DNA of 64,000 nucleotides from NCBI RefSeq assembly GCF_002095535.1, contig NZ_MLJI01000001.1:3213832-3277831 (forward strand), in the 5' to 3' direction. Source of the DNA: Pantoea cypripedii. Lineage in GTDB: Bacteria; Pseudomonadota; Gammaproteobacteria; Enterobacterales; Enterobacteriaceae. Numbering within the stretch: the stretch's first letter is position 1; every line of letters starts with the position of its first letter. Below the pieces are notes generated by a model, which was not told the origin of the DNA, did not search any database, and saw only the letters and a program-made list of their open reading frames with translations. Shown piece by piece: positions 21,738-33,710 of this stretch. Both the position numbers and the translations under genes were made by a program.

Positions 21738-22136
21738 GGGGCTGATTCTGGATTCGACGGGATTGTGAACCCTTAGGTGCATGCCGAGGTGCGGTAGGCC
21801 TCGATAAAAAACCGCAAAAAAATAGTTGCAAAAATCAACTTAAATATGGACGCAGCTAACAGCGATAACTTCGCTTTAGCCGCTTAATCAGCCTAAGAAA
21901 CTGAGTCCTTCCTCTCTCCCTAGCCTCCGCTCTTAGGACGGGGATCAAGAGAGGTCAAACCCAAAAGAGATCGCGTGGATGCCCTGCCTGGGGTTGAAGC
22001 GTTAAATCCAATCAGGCTAGTTTGTTAGTGGCGTGTCCATCCGCAGCTGGCAGGCGAATGTAAAGACTGGACTAAGCATGTAGTGCCGACGGTGTAGTAA
22101 TTTCGGACGCGGGTTCAACTCCCGCCAGCTCCACCA
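21738..22136 (+). ncRNA. ssrA: tmRNA (SsrA) with extended tag reading frame
   Basis: The RNA runs from GGGGCTGATTCTGG to the encoded CCA end; GGGGCTG pairs with CAGCTCC to form the Ala acceptor stem, and the T-arm GCGGGTTCAACTCCCGC is intact. At about 399 bases it is roughly 36 longer than E. coli tmRNA. The resume codon in the conserved UAGUYGCA context is GCA at 21828. From there the frame is open for 19 codons to TAA at 21885-21887 and ends NSDNFALAA. If that start is used the tag is AKINLNMDAANSDNFALAA, nine residues longer than in E. coli. A later resume codon (21855) would give ANSDNFALAA. The pseudoknot-rich 3' part is well conserved. Confidence 0.95.
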
Positions 22137-22180: not shown

Positions 22181-22214
22181 AAGCCCGCATGGCGTAAGCC
22201 CTGCGGGCTTTTTT
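22181..22214 (+). terminator. Terminator after ssrA
   Basis: AAGCCCGC and GCGGGCTT, separated by a 14-base loop and followed by a T run, lie 45 bases after the tmRNA end. Confidence 0.85.
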
Positions 22215-22991
22215 GTGTCTGTCGTTGTCCTGATGATCGAAGAGCGCGCCAACATGGTAGTCAAACATCTGACACTGCATGATGGAAACAGCTTTTTTTG
22301 ATTGTTAAGACCACTGATAAAAAATCTGGTGCTTGCGCTATCAACGTCCAGCGACGTAACAACAAACCATGATTGCCCTTGTGTCAACGATGGTTTAAAC
22401 GTGAATCTGGCGCAACTTTGGTGGTAAAAAAAACCTCAAAAATTCCACAATTGTTCGTGACATCATCATCTACCCGAAAAGAAAAAAATTACTTCAGGAG
22501 GTGGAGTTAACAGGTCACCCCATTTATTACCGGCGAGTAATGCTGCAACTGCAAATCAGCATTGAGCAAAGCACATGTTAAATCGATAAATTTCTGGCTG
22601 ATGTATTGCACTTGCGAAACCACGAACAAGCACGACTAAAAATACCAGGCACCTGACTCTTACATAGTTAAAATTTGAGTTAGGATAATATTATATAAAA
22701 CATGACATTGCCGTCGCTGGTACGGGTCAGCCAGCGTAATGAAACCCTTAAAGCCTACGTAGAGTCAATTTTACGGTTTGCGTCTGTCGTTTCACGGATA
22801 GCCTGAGAAAAGCCTGAGTAATTTGGGATGGATTCGAAACACAAATAATAAATACCTAAAAAGAGGTGTAATTGTTGATGTGACTCAGCTTTAGATGCAT
22901 GCATAAATGATGACGTTACCCTCCCCATTGCTTTAGAATAAAGAGCTTATAGAGCCGCACTGTATTTAAGATTAGATCTGGGAGAGTCGTT
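22215..22991. other. AT-rich non-coding start of the accessory island
   Basis: About 775 bases with no gene I can support. The base composition is visibly more AT-rich than the core genes. A short frame at 22702-22806 (34 codons, from ATGACATTG) could be a decayed gene piece but has no recognisable family. No copy of the ssrA 3' end and no integrase were found by eye. Confidence 0.5.
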
Positions 22992-24425
22992 TTGAGCGAG
23001 AAACCACTTGTAGTGGATTTGGATGGTACGTTAATCCATTCAGATATGCTGCACGAATCTGCATTAAGGGTGTTCAGGGATAGTCCGTTTGAAACGCTTC
23101 GTATTCCATTTCTTCTAAAAAAGGGCAAGGCTTGTTTGAAGCAACACCTTGCCTCACAAACCGAATTTGATCCTAAGACACTCCCCTATAACGAAGAATT
23201 GCTTGAATGGCTCAGGCAACAGCGTGCTGAAGGCCGCTATCTGGTCTTATGCACGGCATCGGATAAATCAATTGCAGATCGCATTGCCGGGCATCTGAAT
23301 ATTTTCGATGAAGTCATCGCCAGCGATGGTATTTCGAATATTGAGGGCAAACACAAAGCCGCCGCGTTGGTACAACGCTTCCAGCAGCATGGTTACGATT
23401 ATGCAGGTAACTCCTCTGCTGATTTAGCAGTCTGGTCTCAAGCGCACAAGGCTATCGTTGTTAATGGTTCAGACGATCTGATTAAAAAGGCCCGGGATAT
23501 TTCTACCGTTGACCGGGTATTCCCTAAAAGAGAAATCGGCTTTTCCGCATGGCGCCGGGTTCTGCGTATCCATCAGTGGCTAAAAAATCTTCTCCTTTTA
23601 GTTCCCTTGTTTGCCGCTCATGATGTCAGCAATGGCGCAGCCTGGGTATCTCTGATGTTTGCTTTTATCGCATTCAGCCTTTGCGCGTCTACGGTATACA
23701 TAGCCAATGACTTGCTCGATCTTGACAGTGACCGCCTGCATCCACGAAAGCGAAATCGGCCCTTTGCCTCAGGACTTGTCCCTGCCTGGAAGGGCGTTCT
23801 GCTTGCGCCACTGCTGCTGATTATCAGTTTGACCGTAGCGGTGTTGGTGGGGAAACAGTTTCTTTGCTGGCTCCTGTTCTACTTTGCCCTGACGTGTGCC
23901 TACTCATGGGTGCTCAAACGGTTGATGTTAATTGATTGCCTCACCCTGGCGATGCTTTATACCTTACGCATCGTTGCAGGCGCGGCAGCGGTTGGTCATG
24001 AACTGTCCTTCTGGCTGCTGGCTTTTTCAGTATTTCTCTTTCTTTCTCTTGCGTTCGTCAAACGCTACGCAGAATTGGAAGTTCAATTACTCAGTGGAAA
24101 AGAGAAAATTCATGGACGTGGATACCACACTCCCGATGCGCCGTTGATTCAGACCATGGGGATTGTGGCTGGCTACGCATCTGTTTTGGTTCTGGCACTG
24201 TATCTGAACAGCGATGCGGTACTGAAGTTGTACGCTGCGCCTGAGCTGATTTGGGGAGCCGTACCTGTCATGCTGTTTTGGGTAAGCTGGATGTGGATGC
24301 AAGCACACCGGGGAAAAATGCACGATGACCCGCTGGTATTTGCCGTCAAAGATCGAGCTAGTCTCAGCGCTGGTATTATATTTGCCGCCATTTTGGTTGC
24401 CGGCACAGTGGGGATTTCATGGTAA
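22992..24425 (+). CDS. HAD phosphatase-UbiA phosphoribosyl/prenyl transferase fusion
   Basis: A 477-residue two-domain protein. Residues 1 to about 175 are a HAD hydrolase with the nucleophile motif VVDLDGTL (D9, D11) and LCTASD near 87. From about 185 there is a UbiA-type polytopic domain with the Mg/diphosphate motif NDLLDLDSD (239-247) and a second acidic motif at DCLTLAMLYTLR (D315). In mycobacteria a UbiA protein (Rv3806c) puts phosphoribose from PRPP on decaprenyl phosphate and a phosphatase then removes the 5'-phosphate. Here one chain carries both likely steps. TTG start at 22992 follows GGGAGAG. It overlaps the DprE1-like gene by seven bases and leads the operon. Confidence 0.85.
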   Translation: MSEKPLVVDLDGTLIHSDMLHESALRVFRDSPFETLRIPFLLKKGKACLKQHLASQTEFDPKTLPYNEELLEWLRQQRAEGRYLVLCTASDKSIADRIAGHLNIFDEVIASDGISNIEGKHKAAALVQRFQQHGYDYAGNSSADLAVWSQAHKAIVVNGSDDLIKKARDISTVDRVFPKREIGFSAWRRVLRIHQWLKNLLLLVPLFAAHDVSNGAAWVSLMFAFIAFSLCASTVYIANDLLDLDSDRLHPRKRNRPFASGLVPAWKGVLLAPLLLIISLTVAVLVGKQFLCWLLFYFALTCAYSWVLKRLMLIDCLTLAMLYTLRIVAGAAAVGHELSFWLLAFSVFLFLSLAFVKRYAELEVQLLSGKEKIHGRGYHTPDAPLIQTMGIVAGYASVLVLALYLNSDAVLKLYAAPELIWGAVPVMLFWVSWMWMQAHRGKMHDDPLVFAVKDRASLSAGIIFAAILVAGTVGISW

Positions 24426-25711
24426 CGATAAACTCATGGGGCCGCCTGTCTCGTGAAGAACACAAGGTGGTGGCACTCAGTGATCGTGGTCAGATTCAGG
24501 CTTCTCTGACCACTCCGGGCCTGGCTCATGGCATGGGACGCAGCTACGGTGACGTATGCCTTAATCCGCAAGGCGAGCTCTGGGTAACGACCGGACTTGA
24601 CCACTTCATCGCCTTTGATGAAAGTACGGGTCGTTTGGTATGCGAAGCTGGAGTCCTGCTGCAGGACATTCAGAGGCTGATGATTCCACGTGGCTGGATT
24701 CTGCCCGTTACCCCAGGAACTCAGCTGGTAACCGTTGGCGGTGCCATCGCCAATGATGTGCATGGCAAAAACCACCACGTTGTGGGTTCATTCGGGGATC
24801 ACATCAAAAGCCTGACTCTTATCCGGACGGATGGCGAAACGATTCATTGTGGCCCGGATGAGCGACCAGATTGGTTCGCCGCCACAGTGGGTGGCGTTGG
24901 CCTCACCGGCGTAATCGCTTCAGCCGAGATCCAGCTTCGTCCCGTTGCAGGCCCTTGGGTCGATACTGAGACCATTGCCTTTGACAACCTTGATGAGTTT
25001 TTCCGACTGTCGGATACGTCAGAAGCGGAGTGGGAACACACCGTTTCCTGGATCGACTGTATCTCAAAAGGCGGCGGGCGTGGTTTGTTCATGCGCGGCA
25101 ATCCTGCTGATATAAAAGACCGGAAAGCACCCAAGGCTGGCAAACTCACCATGCCCATCGTGCCACCCGTCTCAATGGTTAACCGCCTGACACTTCGCCC
25201 CTTCAATATGACCTACTACCATCTCAAAAAGTGGCAGGCAGGAAGGGCAATCGCTCATTACGAGCCCTTTTTCTACCCCCTGGACAACGTGCTGCACTGG
25301 AACCGGATGTACGGTCCTAAAGGCTTTTATCAGTACCAGAGTGTGGTGCCACGCGAAGTGGGGCAAGATGCCGTTCAGGCGATGTTGAAAGAGATCGCCC
25401 GCTCGGGCGACGGCTCCTTCCTCGCAGTACTCAAAACCTTTGGCAACCGACAGCCCCTGGGGATGCTGAGTTTTCCGCAACCAGGCGTCACACTGGCGTT
25501 GGATTTCCCGAATCATGGAGATCGCACGCACAAACTCTTTGAACGACTGGATGCCATCGTGCGTGAAGCGAAAGGCCGAATCTACCTGGCCAAGGATGCA
25601 CGTATGCCTAAAGAATTGTTCGAAGCTGGCTATCCGCGTCTGGCCGAATTTATCCAATACCGGGACCCGGGCATCAGCTCTGGCCTCTCACGCCGCCTAA
25701 TGGGAATTTGA
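24419..25711 (+). CDS. DprE1-like FAD-dependent oxidase subunit
   Basis: A 430-residue VAO-type flavoprotein closely resembling mycobacterial DprE1, which oxidises decaprenylphosphoryl-ribose at C2. The FAD segment GMGRSYGD (38-45), the core GGAIANDVHGKNHHVVGSFG (107-126) with the flavin-site His115, and YLAKDAR with catalytic-type Lys392 all line up. The cysteine of M. tuberculosis DprE1 (C387) that benzothiazinones attack is Ala360 here (TLALDFP). It pairs with the adjacent SDR, whose ATG follows the TGA with no gap. The substrate would be a polyprenylphosphoryl pentose. Confidence 0.88.
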   Translation: MVTINSWGRLSREEHKVVALSDRGQIQASLTTPGLAHGMGRSYGDVCLNPQGELWVTTGLDHFIAFDESTGRLVCEAGVLLQDIQRLMIPRGWILPVTPGTQLVTVGGAIANDVHGKNHHVVGSFGDHIKSLTLIRTDGETIHCGPDERPDWFAATVGGVGLTGVIASAEIQLRPVAGPWVDTETIAFDNLDEFFRLSDTSEAEWEHTVSWIDCISKGGGRGLFMRGNPADIKDRKAPKAGKLTMPIVPPVSMVNRLTLRPFNMTYYHLKKWQAGRAIAHYEPFFYPLDNVLHWNRMYGPKGFYQYQSVVPREVGQDAVQAMLKEIARSGDGSFLAVLKTFGNRQPLGMLSFPQPGVTLALDFPNHGDRTHKLFERLDAIVREAKGRIYLAKDARMPKELFEAGYPRLAEFIQYRDPGISSGLSRRLMGI

Positions 25712-26464
25712 ATGAAGCTTAAGAAAAAAATCGTCATCATTGGTGCTACCTCGGCGATGGCTGAACAATGTGCACGACTGTGGGCGAAAGAAAACCCATC
25801 TGAGATTGTTTTGGTCAGCAGGAATCTGGAAAAAGCCGAACGTATTGCTTCAGATCTCAAGGTGCGCACCCCGGATACGGTAATTACCAACCTTCAAGTG
25901 GATTTTCTCGATGCGAGCCAGATTCAGGAGTTGATTAATCACATCTACCAATCTGGCAATGTAGATGTAGCACTCATTGCGCATGGTTCTCTGCCTGACC
26001 AGGAAGCGTGTCAAAACGATCTCGTCCTTTGTCGGGAAGCCCTGGATGTCAATGGTATATCGCCAGTGCTGTTTGCCGAGGCTTTTGCCATGAACATGCA
26101 AAAGGCCGACAGCGGAACACTCGCCATCATCGGTTCCGTGGCGGGTGACAGGGGCAGAAAATCTAACTATACCTACGGCGCAGCAAAAGGGCTGGTTGCA
26201 GGGTATGTACAAGGTCTGCAACACCGCTTTGCCAATACGAATGTAAAGGTGGTTTTAATTAAACCAGGACCAACCGATACGCCAATGACCGCCCATCTCA
26301 AACAATCCGGCGCCAAACTCGCCCCCGTTGACCGCGTGGCAGCAGAGGTCGTGCGTGGCATTGAAAGTGGGCAACGGGTTATATACACTCCGAAAATTTG
26401 GTCGGTAATCATGATGGTTATTCGCCATATTCCGAATTTCGTATTTAAAAGGCTGGATATTTAA
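25712..26464 (+). CDS. DprE2-like SDR reductase subunit
   Basis: A 250-residue classical short-chain dehydrogenase. The cofactor motif IIGATSAMAEQCAR is at residues 8-21, the catalytic Ser in IIGSVAGDRG near 139, and the Tyr-x3-Lys pair in YTYGAAKG near 155-159. The glycine pattern of the first motif and the adjacency to the DprE1-like gene mark it as DprE2-like, the partner that reduces the 2-keto intermediate to the D-arabino form. Its stop overlaps the next ATG by one base (TAATG). Confidence 0.87.
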   Translation: MKLKKKIVIIGATSAMAEQCARLWAKENPSEIVLVSRNLEKAERIASDLKVRTPDTVITNLQVDFLDASQIQELINHIYQSGNVDVALIAHGSLPDQEACQNDLVLCREALDVNGISPVLFAEAFAMNMQKADSGTLAIIGSVAGDRGRKSNYTYGAAKGLVAGYVQGLQHRFANTNVKVVLIKPGPTDTPMTAHLKQSGAKLAPVDRVAAEVVRGIESGQRVIYTPKIWSVIMMVIRHIPNFVFKRLDI

Positions 26465-28842
26465 TGTCAGGATTGAAATCGAATACAGCTTCAGGAAGGA
26501 GCGCTGGTCTGATTAACAACCGTGCGATAAAAGACACAATCTTTTTACTGGCACTCTTGCTGGTAGCGATTGTGGTTATTGTTCCTCTCTCGCCAAGAAT
26601 GCCATGGTCAGGCCTCGACCCATCATGGATGTATGGGATGAATGAGGCGACGGCTCAGGGAATGTCTTTCGGCAAAGACATCATTTTTACATTCGGGCCC
26701 TATTCCTCAATTTATACAAGAAGCTACGATCCAGCGACCGATCAATTGATGATCTGGGGATCGCTCTTTCTGGCAGTATCGTTTGCCGTTGCTGTCTGGC
26801 TTAACTTCAGGACAGCGGGACGGAGTTTAAAAATTGCATTGCTGGTTGCCCTGGCCGCACTAACCTATAGCCGTGATGCGTTGTTTTTCTTTTATACCAT
26901 GCTGGTGGGCATTCAGGTTTATCACTGGGCAATGGCATTCGATGCAAAACAAGCTACCGAGCCCAAGGGCTTCGCTCTCAACGCCGCTTTATTTGTGCCT
27001 TTTGGTTTATTGCCACTGATTAAAGGCTCAACGCTGGCTGCATGTCTGGGAATTACTTTTCTTGCCTTTGCTTTGCTGGCAAAAAGAAGGCAATGGAAAC
27101 TGTGCCTGCTGATTGGCGCAACAATTTTAGTTTCGATGGTGTTTTTTTGGGCGCTGTCCGGACAGCCGCTAACCGGGCTTGCTAATTATTTTATCGGGCT
27201 GACACCCATTGTTAGCGGCTACACCGAAGCGATGGCAATAGATGGGCCCAAGCGCGAGTACATTATGTATTTGGTAGCGACAGTTGCCCTTGTCGGCTGC
27301 CTGCTACGTGATACACGAGGTTCTTTTTACGACAAATCGGTGGTTGCATTTGTTTTTTTAGGCATCCTCTTTTTGGCTTTAAAAGCGGGTTTCGTCCGAC
27401 ATGACAGCCATGCGAACATTTCTGGAGCGATGCTTCTGCTGGGAGCATTGTTGGCAGGAACGCTGCTCTCTACCCGCAGCGCGATCCCCCTTCTGGTAGT
27501 CTGTTTGCTGGTATGGGGTTACATCGACTTTTCCTATACGAAAAACCCTGTTGGAAGCATTGTAACCAATGCCAAAAATACCTTCTCCGGCGCATGGAAT
27601 GGACTAAAACAGCGTATATTTTCACCTCAGGCACTTACAGACGATTTTAACGATCGCATAAATCAATTGAAGAAGCTCGGAGCCATTCCAAAGCTGGAAG
27701 GAACAGTTGATATTTACTCATACGATCAATCTTATCTGCTCGCATCAGGAAATAAATGGAACCCACGCCCTGTTTTGCAAAGCTATTCGGTCTACACCCC
27801 TAAACTGGCCGAATTGAATAAGATGCACCTTCTTGGCGACAATCGACCAGATAATGTGATATTCGGCGTTCAGCCGATTGATCGCAGGTTACCTTCGCTT
27901 GAGGATGGTGCAAGCTGGCCTGTCCTGCTGTCCAGTTATGAGCCAACTACCTTTACGGGTGACTACCTGTATCTTAAGCACAGAAGCACGCCTACTCCAT
28001 CAAACGAACCACTAAAGCCCATCGGTGGAGGCGTTTACTCGTTTGGTGAGCAGATCACTTTACCTGAATCTGACAGGCCGCTATTTGCGAAGTTAGATAT
28101 TCGCAAAAGCTTTGCGGGTTCTATCATGAACACGCTATTCAAGCCAGGCCAGCTTGAGATGAAACTGACGATGCAAAATGGCATCACCCGCAGCTACAGA
28201 ATCATCTCGGGAATGACGGAGTCTGGCTTTATTATTTCACCGCTGATTGAAACCACAGAAGAGTTTGGATTACTTTCTGCTGATTTAAATTCACTCAATG
28301 ATAAGCGAGTGAAATCGATTGAGATTTCTGCAACCAGCCTGCCTTTCCTTTGGAAGCCGTCATTTAATATCGAGTTTTATCCACTCAATTACCCGTCTTC
28401 ACGTGATTTCATAGGAAAAATGGGTTTTGCTGAACCCCTGGCAAAAACCTTTAACACCACTACAGTCGTTCAACAATGTAACGGGAGTATTGACTCTGCC
28501 AACGGTGTTTCTCCATCATCTGGCGCCATCAAAGCTTCATCCTTACTCAATTCTCAAGGTTGGCTGGCGGCTTCCGTTTCCCCTGCTGAAGTCCCGGATA
28601 AGGTTTATCTGGTACTATCTGGTAACGAAGGAAAACGGTATTTTTTTGATACCGAGCGTAAGACGCGTCCAGATGTGGGAGATTACTTCAAACAGCCGTT
28701 ATTGAACTCTTCCGGTTACGAAACGACCGCTGATGTGTCCAATTTAAATGGGGATTACCAGTTGGGACTTGCATACTCAAGAGGCAACGATCTCTTTGTA
28801 TGCCCCCAATTCAATGTCCCGGTCAAGATATCTCAGGAGTAA
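26464..28842 (+). CDS. Large polytopic membrane protein, putative GT-C arabinofuranosyltransferase
   Basis: A 792-residue protein with about ten to twelve membrane segments in residues 25-390 and a long soluble C-terminal region (about 400-792), presumably periplasmic. The first extracytoplasmic loop carries WSGLDPSWMYGMNE and TFGPYSS, an acidic loop in the position where GT-C enzymes keep their catalytic Asp. I cannot assign a named family. Its place between polyprenyl-arabinose genes and flippase-like genes suggests that it uses the lipid-linked sugar at the outer face of the membrane. Soluble-domain function is unknown. Confidence 0.6.
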   Translation: MSGLKSNTASGRSAGLINNRAIKDTIFLLALLLVAIVVIVPLSPRMPWSGLDPSWMYGMNEATAQGMSFGKDIIFTFGPYSSIYTRSYDPATDQLMIWGSLFLAVSFAVAVWLNFRTAGRSLKIALLVALAALTYSRDALFFFYTMLVGIQVYHWAMAFDAKQATEPKGFALNAALFVPFGLLPLIKGSTLAACLGITFLAFALLAKRRQWKLCLLIGATILVSMVFFWALSGQPLTGLANYFIGLTPIVSGYTEAMAIDGPKREYIMYLVATVALVGCLLRDTRGSFYDKSVVAFVFLGILFLALKAGFVRHDSHANISGAMLLLGALLAGTLLSTRSAIPLLVVCLLVWGYIDFSYTKNPVGSIVTNAKNTFSGAWNGLKQRIFSPQALTDDFNDRINQLKKLGAIPKLEGTVDIYSYDQSYLLASGNKWNPRPVLQSYSVYTPKLAELNKMHLLGDNRPDNVIFGVQPIDRRLPSLEDGASWPVLLSSYEPTTFTGDYLYLKHRSTPTPSNEPLKPIGGGVYSFGEQITLPESDRPLFAKLDIRKSFAGSIMNTLFKPGQLEMKLTMQNGITRSYRIISGMTESGFIISPLIETTEEFGLLSADLNSLNDKRVKSIEISATSLPFLWKPSFNIEFYPLNYPSSRDFIGKMGFAEPLAKTFNTTTVVQQCNGSIDSANGVSPSSGAIKASSLLNSQGWLAASVSPAEVPDKVYLVLSGNEGKRYFFDTERKTRPDVGDYFKQPLLNSSGYETTADVSNLNGDYQLGLAYSRGNDLFVCPQFNVPVKISQE

Positions 28843-28845
28843 ATT

Positions 28846-29784
28846 TTGTTGCAGAAAAAGATAATACTTTCTGGCGGGGCTGGTCTGGTTGGCCAAAATT
28901 TAGTGGCCCGACTCAAGGCAAAGGGCTATGCAAATATTGTTGTTCTCGACAAGCATCGTAACAATCTTGAGGTGCTGAAACGGGTGCAACCCGACATCAC
29001 GGTCGAGTATGCAGACCTTGCTGAACCCGGTCAGTGGCAACAACACTTCGTGGGTGCGGATGTCGTGGTGATGTTACAGGCCCAGATTGGGGGTAACGAT
29101 TATCAGGAGTTCGTTAGAAACAATATTGATTCGACCCGGCTGCTTCTGGATACCATCAAGGCGAACAACGTGCCTTATATGGTGCAGATTAGCTCCTCGG
29201 TTGTGGAATCAGTGGCAGATGACTTCTATACCAACACCAAAAAGGAACAAGAAAAAATGGTGCTGGAATATGGCATACCCTGCCCCATTTTACGTCCTAC
29301 GTTAATGTTTGGCTGGTTCGATCGCAAACACCTGGGCTGGTTATCCCGCTTCATGAAGAAAGTTCCGGTGTTCCCTATCCCAGGGGATGGCCGCTATATG
29401 CGACAACCGCTGTATGTCGGTGATTTTGCCAATATCATTATCAGCTGTATCGAGAATGGTATTCGCGATGGCGTGTACAACATTTCAGGCCATGAAAAAA
29501 TCGACTACATCGACATGATTCGCGAGATCAAACGTGCGATTAAGTCCAGAACGATTATTTTACGCATTCCGTATTCTCTTTTTTATGCTCTCTTGTCTGT
29601 CTGGGGCCTGTTTGATAAAAATCCGCCCTTTACCACCCAGCAGCTGGCGGCTTTAACTGCGAAGGATGAGTTTGAGGTGATCGATTGGCCCGGCATTTTT
29701 GGTGTTCCTTACACCCCTTTCAGGGATGCCGTGGAAGAAACCTTTAACGATCCACGCTATAGCGGCGTAGAGCTGGAGTTTTAA
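28846..29784 (+). CDS. Extended SDR (NAD-dependent epimerase/dehydratase family)
   Basis: A 312-residue Rossmann-fold protein. SGGAGLVGQNLVARL (9-23) is the NAD(P) motif, and YTNTK near 128-132 fits the Tyr-x3-Lys catalytic pair. The chain is typical of nucleotide-sugar epimerases or reductases but could act on a lipid-linked sugar. TTG start at 28846 lies six bases after AGGAGT. It is one of two operon genes (with the flavoprotein downstream) not explained by simple arabinofuranose synthesis. Confidence 0.7.
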   Translation: MLQKKIILSGGAGLVGQNLVARLKAKGYANIVVLDKHRNNLEVLKRVQPDITVEYADLAEPGQWQQHFVGADVVVMLQAQIGGNDYQEFVRNNIDSTRLLLDTIKANNVPYMVQISSSVVESVADDFYTNTKKEQEKMVLEYGIPCPILRPTLMFGWFDRKHLGWLSRFMKKVPVFPIPGDGRYMRQPLYVGDFANIIISCIENGIRDGVYNISGHEKIDYIDMIREIKRAIKSRTIILRIPYSLFYALLSVWGLFDKNPPFTTQQLAALTAKDEFEVIDWPGIFGVPYTPFRDAVEETFNDPRYSGVELEF

Positions 29785-29785
29785 G

Positions 29786-31093
29786 ATGGGACAACGAATT
29801 GCGGTATTGGGCGCAGGTCCAATGGGTTTGGCTGTGGCTTACCAGTTGGCACTTGATGGGCATAAACCGGTACTTTTTGAGGCCGATGACCGTGTCGGCG
29901 GTATGACTGCGACTTTTGATTTTGGTGGCCTGGAAATTGAGCGCTACTACCATTTTCATTGCATTTCCGATCATGCTTTTCTGCAAATGCTTGATGAATT
30001 AGGCCTTGCCGATCAGATGCAGTGGACGGAAACCAAAATGGGCTACTGGTATCAGGGACGTTTGCAGCCCTGGGGTAATCCGGTTGCTCTGCTCAAATTC
30101 CGTGGCCTGAGCCTGATGGCGAAATTCCGCTATGGCCTGCATGCTTTCCTGTCGACGAAACGCGATGACTGGCGTCCTCTGGATAATGTCGAAGCGAGTG
30201 GTTGGATCAAGCGCTGGGTAGGCGCTGAGGCCTGGGAAGTATTGTGGCGTCGGCTTTTTGACTACAAGTTCTATGACTATGCTCATGGCTTGTCTGCTGC
30301 CTGGATATGGAGTCGTATACGTCGTATTGGGCGTTCTCGCTACAGCTTGTTCCGCGAGAAACTGGGTTACCTTGAAGGCGGCTCTGCCACGCTGTTAACC
30401 GCACTGAAAGCAGCGATCGAAGCGCATGGTGGCGAAGTAAGACTGAAGTCTCCCATCGAGAAAGTCGTCATCAATGACGGCAAGGTAGCTGGCGTGCAGG
30501 TTGCGGGTCAGCTTGAATCATTCGATAAGGTGATCAGCACCATTCCGCTGCCATACGTACCTAAACTCATGCCGGATTTGCCTGCGGACATTATGGCCAA
30601 ATTCAGCACCACCAAAAATATTGCGGTAGTGTGTGTCATTGCCAAACTCAGGAAGGCCGTCACTGAGAACTTCTGGTTAAACACCAATGACCCGGATATG
30701 GATATACCTGGTCTGGTGGAGTACACCAACCTGCGTCCGCTCGACCAACATGTGGTGTATGTGCCATTTTACGTCCCGGGAGAGCACCCTCTTTATGCGG
30801 AACCCGATGAGGCTTTCCTGACAAAAGTGCGGAATTATCTCAAGAAGATTAATCCGTCACTGACTGATGAAGATTTTGTCGAAATGCGCGCCAGCCGTTA
30901 TCGCTACGCACAACCAATCTGTGATCCTGGATACCTGGACAAGCTTCCTCCGGTTGCATTACCGGTGAAGGGACTGTGGGTAGCTGATACCTCCTACTAC
31001 TACCCGGAAGATCGCGGCATTTCGGAAAGTATCGGATTTGGCCGACAAATGGCGAAAATGGCCACCACTGACAGCAGGGAGCTTTCCCAGTAA
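29786..31093 (+). CDS. FAD-dependent oxidoreductase (amine-oxidase/UGM-like)
   Basis: A 435-residue flavoprotein. The dinucleotide motif VLGAGPMGLAVAYQL (7-21) and FEADDRVGGMTATF (about 31-44) are the two classical FAD-contact segments of the protoporphyrinogen-oxidase/UDP-galactopyranose-mutase superfamily. The C-terminal GLWVADTSYYYPEDRGISESIGFG closes the FAD site. It could be a mutase or desaturase; the sequence does not decide. It follows the SDR by one base and overlaps gtrA by one base. Confidence 0.65.
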   Translation: MGQRIAVLGAGPMGLAVAYQLALDGHKPVLFEADDRVGGMTATFDFGGLEIERYYHFHCISDHAFLQMLDELGLADQMQWTETKMGYWYQGRLQPWGNPVALLKFRGLSLMAKFRYGLHAFLSTKRDDWRPLDNVEASGWIKRWVGAEAWEVLWRRLFDYKFYDYAHGLSAAWIWSRIRRIGRSRYSLFREKLGYLEGGSATLLTALKAAIEAHGGEVRLKSPIEKVVINDGKVAGVQVAGQLESFDKVISTIPLPYVPKLMPDLPADIMAKFSTTKNIAVVCVIAKLRKAVTENFWLNTNDPDMDIPGLVEYTNLRPLDQHVVYVPFYVPGEHPLYAEPDEAFLTKVRNYLKKINPSLTDEDFVEMRASRYRYAQPICDPGYLDKLPPVALPVKGLWVADTSYYYPEDRGISESIGFGRQMAKMATTDSRELSQ

Positions 31094-31482
31094 TGATTTC
31101 GCCACAATTCCTTCGATTTTTGGTCGCGGGAGGAATCGCTGCCAGTGCTAACTTTGGCTCACGATTTGTCTTTAGCATGTTCGTTGGCTACGGCTTCGCG
31201 GTTTTTTTTGCTTACCTGGTCGGCATGCTGGTGGCATTTCTACTGATGCGCGGGCATGTTTTTAATGCGAGTCAGGGGACACTTGCGCCGCAAGTGTACA
31301 AGTTTGTGGCGGTAAACATTCTTGCCGTTCTTCAGACGTTAGCGATCAGTCTGTTGCTGGCGCGCTGGTTGTTACCCTCATTTGGCATCGTGGATCACGC
31401 CGAAGCAATCGGCCATCTGGTGGGCGTGCTGGTACCGGTGGTGACCAGTTATTTCGGCCATAAGTTGTTAACCTTTCGATGA
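31093..31482 (+). CDS. GtrA-family membrane protein
   Basis: A 129-residue protein with four predicted membrane helices and the family's typical start, QFLRFLVAGGIAASANFGSRF, and end, SYFGHKLLTFR. GtrA proteins are thought to flip or escort polyprenyl-phosphate-linked sugars; in phage-type O-antigen conversion GtrA moves undecaprenyl-phosphate-glucose outward. In this operon it is the natural candidate for moving polyprenylphosphoryl-arabinose across the membrane. It overlaps both neighbours (TAATG and ATGA). Confidence 0.85.
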   Translation: MISPQFLRFLVAGGIAASANFGSRFVFSMFVGYGFAVFFAYLVGMLVAFLLMRGHVFNASQGTLAPQVYKFVAVNILAVLQTLAISLLLARWLLPSFGIVDHAEAIGHLVGVLVPVVTSYFGHKLLTFR

Positions 31483-32483
31483 GCAAGTTTTTCACTCGAC
31501 TTCAGGGTGCGCTGCGTGAGCGGCGCATCATTCGGGCCATTGTCTGGTTTGTCACTATCGGCGTGCTGCTTAATCTGACCGCTGTTTTCTGGTCAGGCTG
31601 GCATGAGACAGTCGCGGCATTCGCCGCGTTAGGGCTTCAGACGCTGGTGATCAGTGCCGTGGTGTCGAGTAGCTCTTATCTGTGGCGTTTTGGCCGCTGG
31701 GAATATTCTCTCCACTGCCTTGAAAATGTCGTGCCCAGATTCACCCATTTCGCCGTTTACCTGTCCGGGCTAGCCTTAACGGCAACACCCGGAAAATCCG
31801 GAGAAACGTTCCGTTCTGCATTATTAGTCCCGCATGGCGTAAAAGTTCCCGATAGCCTCGCCGCCTTCCTTGTTGACAGGGGATCCGATGTTTTAGGGAT
31901 GGTTTTGCTGGGTGCGCTGGCCGCTCTCCTGGCGGAGCATCACCTTGCATGGGTGTGGCTGCTGTCGTTTGCTGCCCTGCTGCTGGCAAGCTGTGTCTTC
32001 TCATACGTTCTGTCACACCCCAGGGTCAGCAATAGCTGGAGTCGGCTGGATCGTGCGATGACATGGTTACCCATTAAGGGAGGACAAGCCATGCTCGAAG
32101 CCTGGTCCAGGGTGTGGAAACTACCAAGAGTCTCAGCCTTTTCGGGTGTCGCGATGGTTGCCTATGGCACACAGGCTCTGGTATTTGCCTGGTTCTGCCA
32201 CATTTTAGGCACGGGAGTTTCAGGTGCTGACTGCGTGTTAATCTTCGTGCAAGCAACGTTGTTCGGCGCAGCAAGTATGATACCAGCCGGGCTAGGCGTC
32301 ATGGAGGCAGCGCTGGTTTTTCAACTGGTTGCGCATGGCGTTAACGACGGTACGGCGATGTCGTTGGCGATCTCCATTCGTCTGGTGACACTGTGGTTTG
32401 GCATGTCTCTGGGTGCCTTGTCTCTGCTACTGTTGTCTGGTCGAAAACTGGGTATACAGCAAGACCCCACCAGAACACGATGA
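31479..32483 (+). CDS. Flippase-like / LPG synthase TM-domain (UPF0104) protein
   Basis: A 334-residue integral membrane protein with about eight helices. It contains the LSGLALTATPGKSGETFRSAL and PAGLGVMEAALV segments that mark the lysylphosphatidylglycerol-synthase transmembrane (AglD-like) family. It lacks the C-terminal tRNA-using domain of MprF, so it is not an aminoacyl-lipid synthase. A transport or modification step late in the glycan pathway fits its position as the last operon gene. It begins inside the gtrA stop (ATGA). Confidence 0.75.
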   Translation: MSKFFTRLQGALRERRIIRAIVWFVTIGVLLNLTAVFWSGWHETVAAFAALGLQTLVISAVVSSSSYLWRFGRWEYSLHCLENVVPRFTHFAVYLSGLALTATPGKSGETFRSALLVPHGVKVPDSLAAFLVDRGSDVLGMVLLGALAALLAEHHLAWVWLLSFAALLLASCVFSYVLSHPRVSNSWSRLDRAMTWLPIKGGQAMLEAWSRVWKLPRVSAFSGVAMVAYGTQALVFAWFCHILGTGVSGADCVLIFVQATLFGAASMIPAGLGVMEAALVFQLVAHGVNDGTAMSLAISIRLVTLWFGMSLGALSLLLLSGRKLGIQQDPTRTR

Positions 32484-32576
32484 TTCATTTACAGTTTATT
32501 CCTAAAGCCAGATGTGACTGAGCGTGCCATTGTTAACTACGGTCAGAACATTAATGACTTTGATGAGGGAATATTC

Positions 32577-32933
32577 ATGAAAAAGACAATTATCGCTTTA
32601 TCAGCATTTCTGCTGGCTTCGTCGGCTTTTGCCGCCACCACACACGCAACCGATGAAACCGTCGCCAATGCACAGGCAGGCGCGAATACCGCAAAAGAGA
32701 AACTGCATCAGGCTCAGGATGAAGGGTCTGAACTGAAGCTCAAGTCTAAACATGCTGCTGAAGGTAAAAGCGATAGCCTGAGTAGTAAGGCAAGCGAAGG
32801 TACGCAAAAGGCCTGGCATAGCACCAAAGAAGGGACTGAAAAAGGTTGGGATGCAACCAAAGAAGGTGCTCAGAAAGGCTGGAACAAAACCAAAGAAGGT
32901 GCCAGCGACGTGAAGAAAAAAGTCACCGAATAA
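32577..32933 (+). CDS. Exported LEA-like 11-residue repeat protein
   Basis: A 118-residue secreted protein. The signal peptide MKKTIIALSAFLLASSAFA is followed by a mature chain with almost no hydrophobic core. The C-terminal half has three tandem 11-residue repeats (TQKAWHSTKEG, TEKGWDATKEG, AQKGWNKTKEG) and a fourth degenerate unit. Such amphipathic 11-mers resemble LEA and apolipoprotein-like proteins that fold on drying or on membranes. I chose the ATG at 32577 because of the signal peptide and GAGGGA upstream; an in-frame extension to 32514 is unlikely. Function is unknown. Confidence 0.75.
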   Translation: MKKTIIALSAFLLASSAFAATTHATDETVANAQAGANTAKEKLHQAQDEGSELKLKSKHAAEGKSDSLSSKASEGTQKAWHSTKEGTEKGWDATKEGAQKGWNKTKEGASDVKKKVTE

Positions 32934-32944
32934 GTTAACTCAGA

Positions 32945-33050: not shown

Positions 33051-33710
33051 ATGTCTGACACCTTCATCCGCCAGCCGCTTCCCCTGCCAAACGGTCACAA
33101 CAAAGTGCTGCTGCATTCATGCTGCGCGCCCTGCTCCGGTGAAGTGATGGAAGCGATGCTGGCTTCCGGTATCGATTACACCATTTTCTTTTACAACCCA
33201 AACATTCATCCACTGAAAGAATACGAACTGCGGAAGGAAGAAAATATCCGTTTTGCCGAGCAGTTTGGTGTCCCTTTTGTCGATGCCGATTATGACAAAG
33301 ACAACTGGTTCGAACGCGCTCGTGGTATGGAGTGGGAGCCGGAACGCGGTGTGCGTTGCACCATGTGTTTTGATATGCGCTTCGAACGCACTGCATTATA
33401 TGCCCACGAACATGGCTTTCCGGTCATCACCAGCTCACTGGGTATTTCGCGCTGGAAGAATATGCAGCAAATCAACGATTGCGGTGTGCGTGCCGCCGCA
33501 CGTTATCCGGATATGCTGTATTGGGAATTTAACTGGCGCAAAGGTGGGGGGTCCGCACGCATGATCGAAATCAGTAAGCGCGAGCGTTTCTATCAGCAGG
33601 AATATTGTGGTTGCATCTATTCATTACGCGACAGTAACCGCCATCGCGTCGCCAGCGGTCGGGAACGCATCGAGATTGGCGTGCAGTATTATCAACCTGA
33701 TGAAGATTAG
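33051..33710 (+). CDS. queH: Epoxyqueuosine reductase QueH
   Basis: A 219-residue member of the DUF208/QueH family, which performs the last step of queuosine tRNA modification (epoxyqueuosine to queuosine) in organisms without or besides QueG. The cysteine motifs HSCCAPCSG (about 22-30), CTMCFDMR (about 104-111) and [13 protein letters not shown] (about 183-195) are those that bind the iron-sulfur cluster and a second metal. Its stop overlaps the convergent tetR-type gene by three to four bases. Confidence 0.9.

Follow-up and report, generated by a model that had tools for sequence, protein, structure and literature searches.

A 64,000-nucleotide stretch of the Pantoea cypripedii genome (contig NZ_MLJI01000001.1, positions 3,213,832 to 3,277,831; hereafter the window) carries an operon of eight intact, consecutive plus-strand open reading frames (22992-32483) that is predicted to make a lipid-linked pentofuranose, and in which two strongly conserved enzymes, a short-chain dehydrogenase/reductase (SDR) and a flavoprotein, probably tailor this sugar. 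An initial annotation of the sequence had described eight consecutive genes on one strand, which the coordinates bear out, and its remark that they mostly overlap by 1-7 bases is fair: four of the seven junctions overlap (by 7, 1, 1 and 4 bp), the others being abutting or gapped (0, 3 and 1 bp). The genes are the following:

22992-24425, plus strand: fusion of a HAD phosphatase with UbiA (PF12710 and PF01040; NF006088 at 684 bits, cut-off 351)
24419-25711, plus strand: DprE1-like flavin adenine dinucleotide (FAD) oxidase, predicted to oxidise C2 of polyprenyl-phosphate-linked (polyprenyl-P-) ribose (NF053785 at 360 bits; PDB 4aut)
25712-26464, plus strand: DprE2-like SDR, predicted to reduce the 2-keto group (PRK07102 at 257 bits; NF053786 at 162 bits)
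26464-28842, plus strand: predicted GT-C-fold glycosyltransferase of 792 aa with a C-terminal immunoglobulin (Ig)-like domain (fold matches)
28846-29784, plus strand: extended SDR of the sugar epimerase/dehydratase type (PF01370)
29786-31093, plus strand: flavoprotein with the fold of phytoene desaturase, protoporphyrinogen oxidase and UDP-galactopyranose mutase (UGM) (NF005560 at 580 bits, cut-off 252)
31093-31482, plus strand: small membrane protein of the GtrA family, candidate flippase (PF04138)
31479-32483, plus strand: LPG_synthase_TM flippase-like protein, accessory (PF03706/TIGR00374)

This gene set is not a chance grouping, because it recurs in other loci: among 80 GT-C loci fetched from genome records by means of the GT-C protein, 32 hold ubiA, dprE1 and dprE2, and 29 of these 32 also hold the genes of the extended SDR and the flavoprotein. 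Two loci, L044 (a short contig) and L050, have the pair and no dprE1 in the fetched stretch; L050 apparently lies on the same contig as G1340, a genome in which DprE1 sits farther off (see below).

The activities of UbiA-HAD, DprE1 and DprE2 together give polyprenyl-P-D-arabinofuranose. In the window, residues 189-369 of the HAD-UbiA protein match the Mycobacterium tuberculosis decaprenyl-phosphate phosphoribosyltransferase (PDB 8j8j, E 1.9e-26), and its N239/D240/D243/D247 and R358/E361 have the same spacing as N247, D248, D251, D255, R366 and E369, the residues described for the Citrobacter youngae polyprenyl-phosphoribose synthase ORF15 (Kelly et al., 2024; PMC11127046). Additionally, D9 of the DLDGT motif in the HAD domain is the expected phosphatase nucleophile. 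Judged by sequence, a polyprenyl-phosphoribose synthase with its Asn/Asp motif and a phosphoribose phosphatase, both of which characterise three-component systems, are present, and the fusion is predicted to be a polyprenyl-phosphoribose synthase with a built-in 5-phosphatase. The DprE1-like protein aligns over residues 6-417 with solved DprE1 (PDB 4aut, E 4e-74); its DVHGKNHH faces DIHGKNHH of DprE1, with HGKNHH, a stretch that we take to be catalytic, kept, and a reading by eye of the LALDFP/VCVDFP part of the alignment puts alanine at the position of C387 of M. tuberculosis DprE1, the cysteine that benzothiazinones attack. The DprE2-like protein has PRK07102 as its top family (257 bits being below the cut-off of this family) and DprE2 as its second, and contains Y155-x3-K159. 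Because the HAD-UbiA protein keeps the catalytic residues of ORF15 and is followed by relatives of DprE1 and DprE2, undecaprenyl-P-D-arabinofuranose is the predicted intermediate, and this donor half of the pathway is well supported; a lipid-bound sugar of the D-arabinose type is very probably made by a route like that of tuberculosis bacteria. Homology of the three proteins thereby supports the initial annotation in its proposal of a route from phosphoribosyl pyrophosphate (PRPP) to polyprenyl-P-D-arabinofuranose.

The extended SDR and the flavoprotein, to which the initial annotation gave no role, are the most conserved products of the operon. Over the 25 loci in which coverage of six genes is good, median identity to the window protein is 74% for the flavoprotein and 69% for the SDR, followed by DprE1 (52%), UbiA (50%), GtrA (46%), DprE2 (44%) and GT-C (38%). 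With the Pantoea/Erwinia rows L003, L004 and L133 and one duplicate left out, 46 distinct extended loci remain; in 39 of them the flavoprotein is better conserved than DprE1, and in 41 of 44 the SDR is. The SDR contains GGAGLVG and Y128-x3-K132, with S117, S118, Y128 and K132 invariant in 38 sequences, and its sequence places it in the sugar epimerase/dehydratase kind. The flavoprotein shares with UGM the fold and the flavin-binding N-terminal part; no GLF Pfam match was obtained at E 0.01, and UGM is not its best family, being outscored by the phytoene desaturase and protoporphyrinogen oxidase families.

To avoid selection by GT-C, the flavoprotein was used as a query in its own right. Among 398 Pseudomonadota genomes it gave nine matches at E 1e-40, and all eight with at least 48% identity occur with DprE1, seven at the same locus; for the eighth (G529) the contig stops, and DprE1 is on a different one. 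The ninth match, at 34% identity, is from a genome without DprE1. Among 299 genomes of one family, 15 matches were found at E 1e-60, and the 13 with at least 69% identity are all accompanied by DprE1, twelve at the same locus and one (G1340) about 39 kb away. Likewise, all seven plasmid records with a flavoprotein of at least 45% identity hold DprE1 about 3 kb from it. In total, DprE1 is present in 27 of 27 genomes and records with a flavoprotein of at least 45% identity (one genome being common to both genome samples), and in the 20 genomes it lies in the same fetched locus (18), about 39 kb off on the same contig (1) or on another contig (1). The dependence is one-way: DprE1 at E 1e-60 is found in 30 of 190 Pseudomonadota genomes, only five of these 30 being among the flavoprotein carriers, and 57 of 64 DprE1-bearing plasmid records, taken as plasmid sequences and not with their chromosomes, show no flavoprotein match at 45% or more. 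Inspection of five of these 57 plasmids revealed four ubiA-gtrA-dprE1-dprE2 operons, two of them with one inserted gene, and one plasmid with dprE1-dprE2 separate from ubiA. In a stretch of a Rhizobium laguerreae plasmid, an annotated 306-aa flavoprotein lies upstream and does not match that of the window.

In a DprE1 tree of 66 rows (49 extended and 17 plain), the extended and plain labels change ten times, and branches with strong support make at least seven of these changes unavoidable; extended operons thus group by descent, yet they also arose or were lost repeatedly. One locus (L006) has a flavoprotein 80% identical to that of the window and a DprE1 only 39% identical, a case of the SDR-flavoprotein pair standing with distant donor genes.

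The 792-aa protein has no Pfam or NCBIfam family at E 0.01, and its agreement with AftA lies in the fold alone. Its predicted model (pLDDT 90.4), which ends in the Ig-like domain (about residues 670-792), matches folds that include AftA, ALG3, Pmt4, OST and ArnT, with AftA among the nearest. These matches support the large GT-C-like protein of the initial annotation, which is here predicted to be a glycosyltransferase with the GT-C fold found in three-component systems. D52, after the first helix, is kept in at least 90% of 65 aligned GT-C sequences, and the profile built from these 65 gave no GT-C among its matches to PDB sequences at E 1. What varies among extended loci is the transferase slot, in which the GT-C can be replaced or accompanied by other polytopic proteins: none of the eight tested has a Pfam family, and among the polytopic candidates of these loci the window GT-C was matched only by GT-C homologues already known. 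In a stand-in for GT136 made of six HAD-UbiA loci without DprE1, no polytopic candidate (at least 400 aa and at least five predicted helices) matched the window GT-C, a weak comparison with single-sequence targets; a 621-aa candidate at L127 fell below the helix filter, and that at L125 is an acyltransferase. For the flippase, which the initial annotation had also named, the GtrA (PF04138) and LPG_synthase_TM (PF03706) families provide two candidates, while the three-component prototype uses a different transporter; the LPG_synthase_TM gene is present in nine of 25 complete loci.

The general pathway is already known from the three-component pentofuranose systems published in 2024, with DprE1/E2 homologues reported for arabinofuranose (Araf)-bearing glycans, and with Xanthomonas and Bacillus systems that hold several epimerase or GT-C candidates left unexplained (Kelly et al., 2024; PMC11127046). 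A search of the examined text of that paper and of related titles and abstracts found the SDR-flavoprotein pair nowhere described, and the 'elaborate systems' of its supplement may include it. Like C. youngae O1/O2 (ORF15, ORF14, ORF12, ORF13), the operon has a HAD-UbiA fusion, which agrees in its catalytic residues and their spacing, and a GT-C enzyme carrying an extra beta domain, which in ORF12 is described as glycan-binding, and like O2 it would include an epimerase step on the lipid-linked sugar (PMC11127046); unlike these systems, it has DprE1/DprE2 and the SDR-flavoprotein pair, and GtrA replaces the ORF14 transporter. With the mycobacterial decaprenylphosphoryl-arabinose pathway (Rv3806c, Rv3807c, DprE1, DprE2, Rv3789, AftA/Emb) it shares the route from PRPP to polyprenyl-P-Araf, a small membrane exporter candidate and a GT-C with AftA among its nearest folds, but its phosphatase is fused to UbiA, an SDR and a flavoprotein are added, and the host is Gram-negative with no arabinogalactan. 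The rhizobial noeCNHOP operon, which adds D-Araf to Nod factors, similarly has three orthologues of the mycobacterial pathway (noeC, noeH, noeO) besides a proposed phosphatase (noeN) and a transferase (noeP); it differs, when compared by description, in having no SDR-flavoprotein pair among its named genes and in its acceptor, a lipochitooligosaccharide (PMC5080398). As in Gtr modification of O-antigens (GtrA, GtrB, Gtr GT-C), a GtrA-family protein is combined with a GT-C that would use a lipid-linked donor in the periplasm, whereas the operon has no GtrB and the donor is predicted to come from PRPP and not from a nucleotide sugar.

The best explanation, which we favor with some reservation, is that of a mobile-looking, horizontally acquired envelope-glycosylation operon in which the SDR and the flavoprotein tailor a lipid-linked pentose. 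By homology to characterised enzymes, UbiA would transfer ribose-5-phosphate from PRPP to undecaprenyl phosphate, the fused HAD domain would strip the 5-phosphate, and inversion at C2 by DprE1 and DprE2 would yield undecaprenyl-P-D-arabinofuranose. This lipid-linked pentose could then be tailored further by the SDR-flavoprotein pair, GtrA may flip it, perhaps aided by the LPG_synthase_TM protein, and the GT-C would move the pentose, at the outer face of the membrane, to a glycan, with the Ig-like domain perhaps holding this glycan. The acceptor is most likely a periplasmic glycan. We read the pair as acting on the DprE1/DprE2 product because it goes with DprE1 while DprE1 often goes without it, because it is strongly conserved and because it has repeatedly been joined to other donor genes. 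Since the pair is tied to DprE1, while the D-Araf operon noeCNHOP is described without it (PMC5080398), the sugar that reaches the acceptor is probably D-arabinofuranose in derivatised or isomerised form. The proposal of the initial annotation that D-arabinofuranose itself is transferred is thus not supported as it stood, given the conserved pair, the presence of DprE1 in all 27 cases and the described gene content of noeCNHOP.

As a tentative refinement, the pair might form a second epimerase/isomerase stage on undecaprenyl-P-D-arabinofuranose, so that the operon would make and transfer a pentose new to this route. Plausible on chemical grounds would be D-lyxofuranose, by inversion at C3, or an L-xylo sugar, by inversion at C4 via a 3-keto intermediate, possibly with a ring change by the UGM-fold flavoprotein. 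A literature search for 'lyxofuranose' and 'O-antigen' gave no joint match, which neither supports nor excludes lyxofuranose, and this sugar occurs in no solved structure according to Kelly et al. (PMC11127046). The idea of an L-xylose product is a lead only: in the O-antigen of Ralstonia solanacearum, beta-L-xylose occurs as a non-stoichiometric terminal residue in the pyranose form (PMC10450222), and a strain of this species has a homologue (P0104) with 41% identity to the window GT-C. The cassette was sought in Ralstonia and could not be shown; the best match to P0104 in the 299-genome family sample has 40% identity, so no near-identical strain was sampled, and 'Ralstonia pickettii DTP0602' is the sole entry from that genus among the best 120 of 7496 relatives of a Caballeronia flavoprotein. 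Both candidate tailoring enzymes are strongly conserved but uncharacterised, and they lend themselves to direct assay with PRPP and a short polyprenyl phosphate; if they make a new pentose, the origin of rare pentoses in surface glycans becomes a testable question.

The main rival, which we consider rather unlikely, is that the pathway ends at plain D-arabinofuranose, with the SDR-flavoprotein pair working for the acceptor or at some other arabinosylation-related step. UbiA, phosphatase, DprE1 and DprE2 suffice in known systems (PMC11127046; noeCNHOP, PMC5080398), and plasmid operons of ubiA, gtrA, dprE1 and dprE2 with hypothetical proteins occur in Rhizobium, Azospirillum, Cereibacter and Paracoccus; against this, extended loci keep the pair but differ in the polytopic protein that occupies the transferase slot, a pattern easier to reconcile with a common donor than with a common acceptor. 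An action of the pair on the isoprenoid carrier, such as reduction or desaturation of the donor's polyprenyl chain, is improbable: the SDR is of the sugar epimerase/dehydratase kind, and DprE1 should then be dispensable, yet it accompanies the flavoprotein in all 27 genomes and records. Least probable of all is the glycosylation of a protein such as type IV pilin, which certain Pseudomonas strains arabinosylate with polyprenyl-P-Araf as the proposed donor (PMC11127046): no pilin gene is found among the operon and the 20 neighbors classified, and the C-terminal domain of the GT-C is Ig-like, the general kind called glycan-binding in ORF12.

Several observations weigh against the tailoring of the lipid-linked pentose by the SDR and the flavoprotein. 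From linkage and conservation it follows that the genes are functionally tied, but not that the sugar is the substrate. The extended label is clustered by descent (ten changes against a shuffled mean of 15.3, with none of 500 shuffles as low), so the 27 cases of co-occurrence are not independent, and some 'plain' DprE1 loci lie on short contigs. Both genomes of the one-family sample with a flavoprotein of only 27-28% identity also hold DprE1, about 42 and 82 kb away and without such a cassette, which makes whole-genome presence a weaker argument than the same-locus figure of 18 of 20; one of these 20 genomes, G1119 (95% complete), lacks the SDR although the flavoprotein is present. The GT-C is not tied to this donor, as the fetched stretch of 44 of the 80 GT-C loci contains no other gene of the operon, and 26 of the 44 are from Legionella and close kin. 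Lastly, in the comparison with mycobacterial enzymes that the initial annotation had suggested, the matches to 8j8j and 4aut hold, but the DprE1-like and DprE2-like proteins fall short of the NCBIfam equivalog scores (360 bits against a cut-off of 500 for NF053785, and 162 against 250 for NF053786), the two models being apparently centered on mycobacterial proteins.

GT-C-only loci of Legionella include L015, L017, L020, L021, L023-L027, L029, L031, L032 and L034, and L. gratiana has one such locus (L025) and another in which the cassette is split on two strands (L013). Flavoprotein relatives of 27-34% identity stand in other gene settings at L198, L199 (G1382, G1335) and L151 (G538), with large polytopic proteins adjoining them in L198 and L199.

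Regarding its distribution, the HAD-UbiA protein is found at E 1e-30 in two of 392 sampled genomes of the window's family, one being that of the window itself; the four further genomes sampled from its genus gave no match. By their operon proteins, the closest named relatives are Pantoea and Erwinia. One congener (G267) has ssrA followed by a magnesium ATPase gene and its downstream genes without the operon, and in an Erwinia-like genome (G018) operon and ssrA lie on different contigs. The loci of the DprE1 tree span Pseudomonadota, Chlorobiota and Thermodesulfobacteriota, and others are on plasmids, such as pDG3-1a of Agrobacterium salinitolerans (L085), typed as conjugative, which carries a ubiA-dprE1-dprE2-sdr-fad-gtrA core. 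The mycobacterial-type arabinose donor pathway is, in this sense, a transferable cassette in several phyla, with changing transferases. On pDG3-1a the core is near dTDP-rhamnose and rhamnan synthesis genes. A link to phages is limited to one partial phage match for the HAD-UbiA protein and, among five operon proteins compared with PHROGs, a match of the SDR alone (phrog_540).

The genome comprises 6.55 Mb in three contigs, and the 20 operon neighbors that were classified are mostly housekeeping, transport or regulatory genes. Upstream lie smpB and ssrA, then a terminator-like hairpin (22196-22210) and an AT-rich leader, whose G+C content is 42.1% compared with 53.5% across the window. Two further features belong to this region:

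21738-22136, plus strand: ssrA (transfer-messenger RNA, tmRNA), chromosomal marker beside the operon
22910-22939, plus strand: possible promoter, a weak consensus match (13 matches in the region against 11.9 expected, thus not above chance)

On the 3' side, the operon is followed by a small lysine-rich protein, QueH, a TetR-type regulator and a magnesium P-type ATPase. The lysine-rich protein (about 32574-32933), with a signal-like start and a terminator-like hairpin at 32942, is probably not a member of the operon, because a homologue is present in a congener (G238) without a HAD-UbiA match. The next gene (33051-33710) encodes a QueH-type epoxyqueuosine reductase, here in an enterobacterial-type genome. 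The sole tmRNA match in the genome, at 21738-22136, has an extended tag, AKINLNMDAANSDNFALAA, compared with ANDENYALAA in six relatives; the extension consists of a 27-nt in-frame insertion within the tag frame and about 8 nt right after it.

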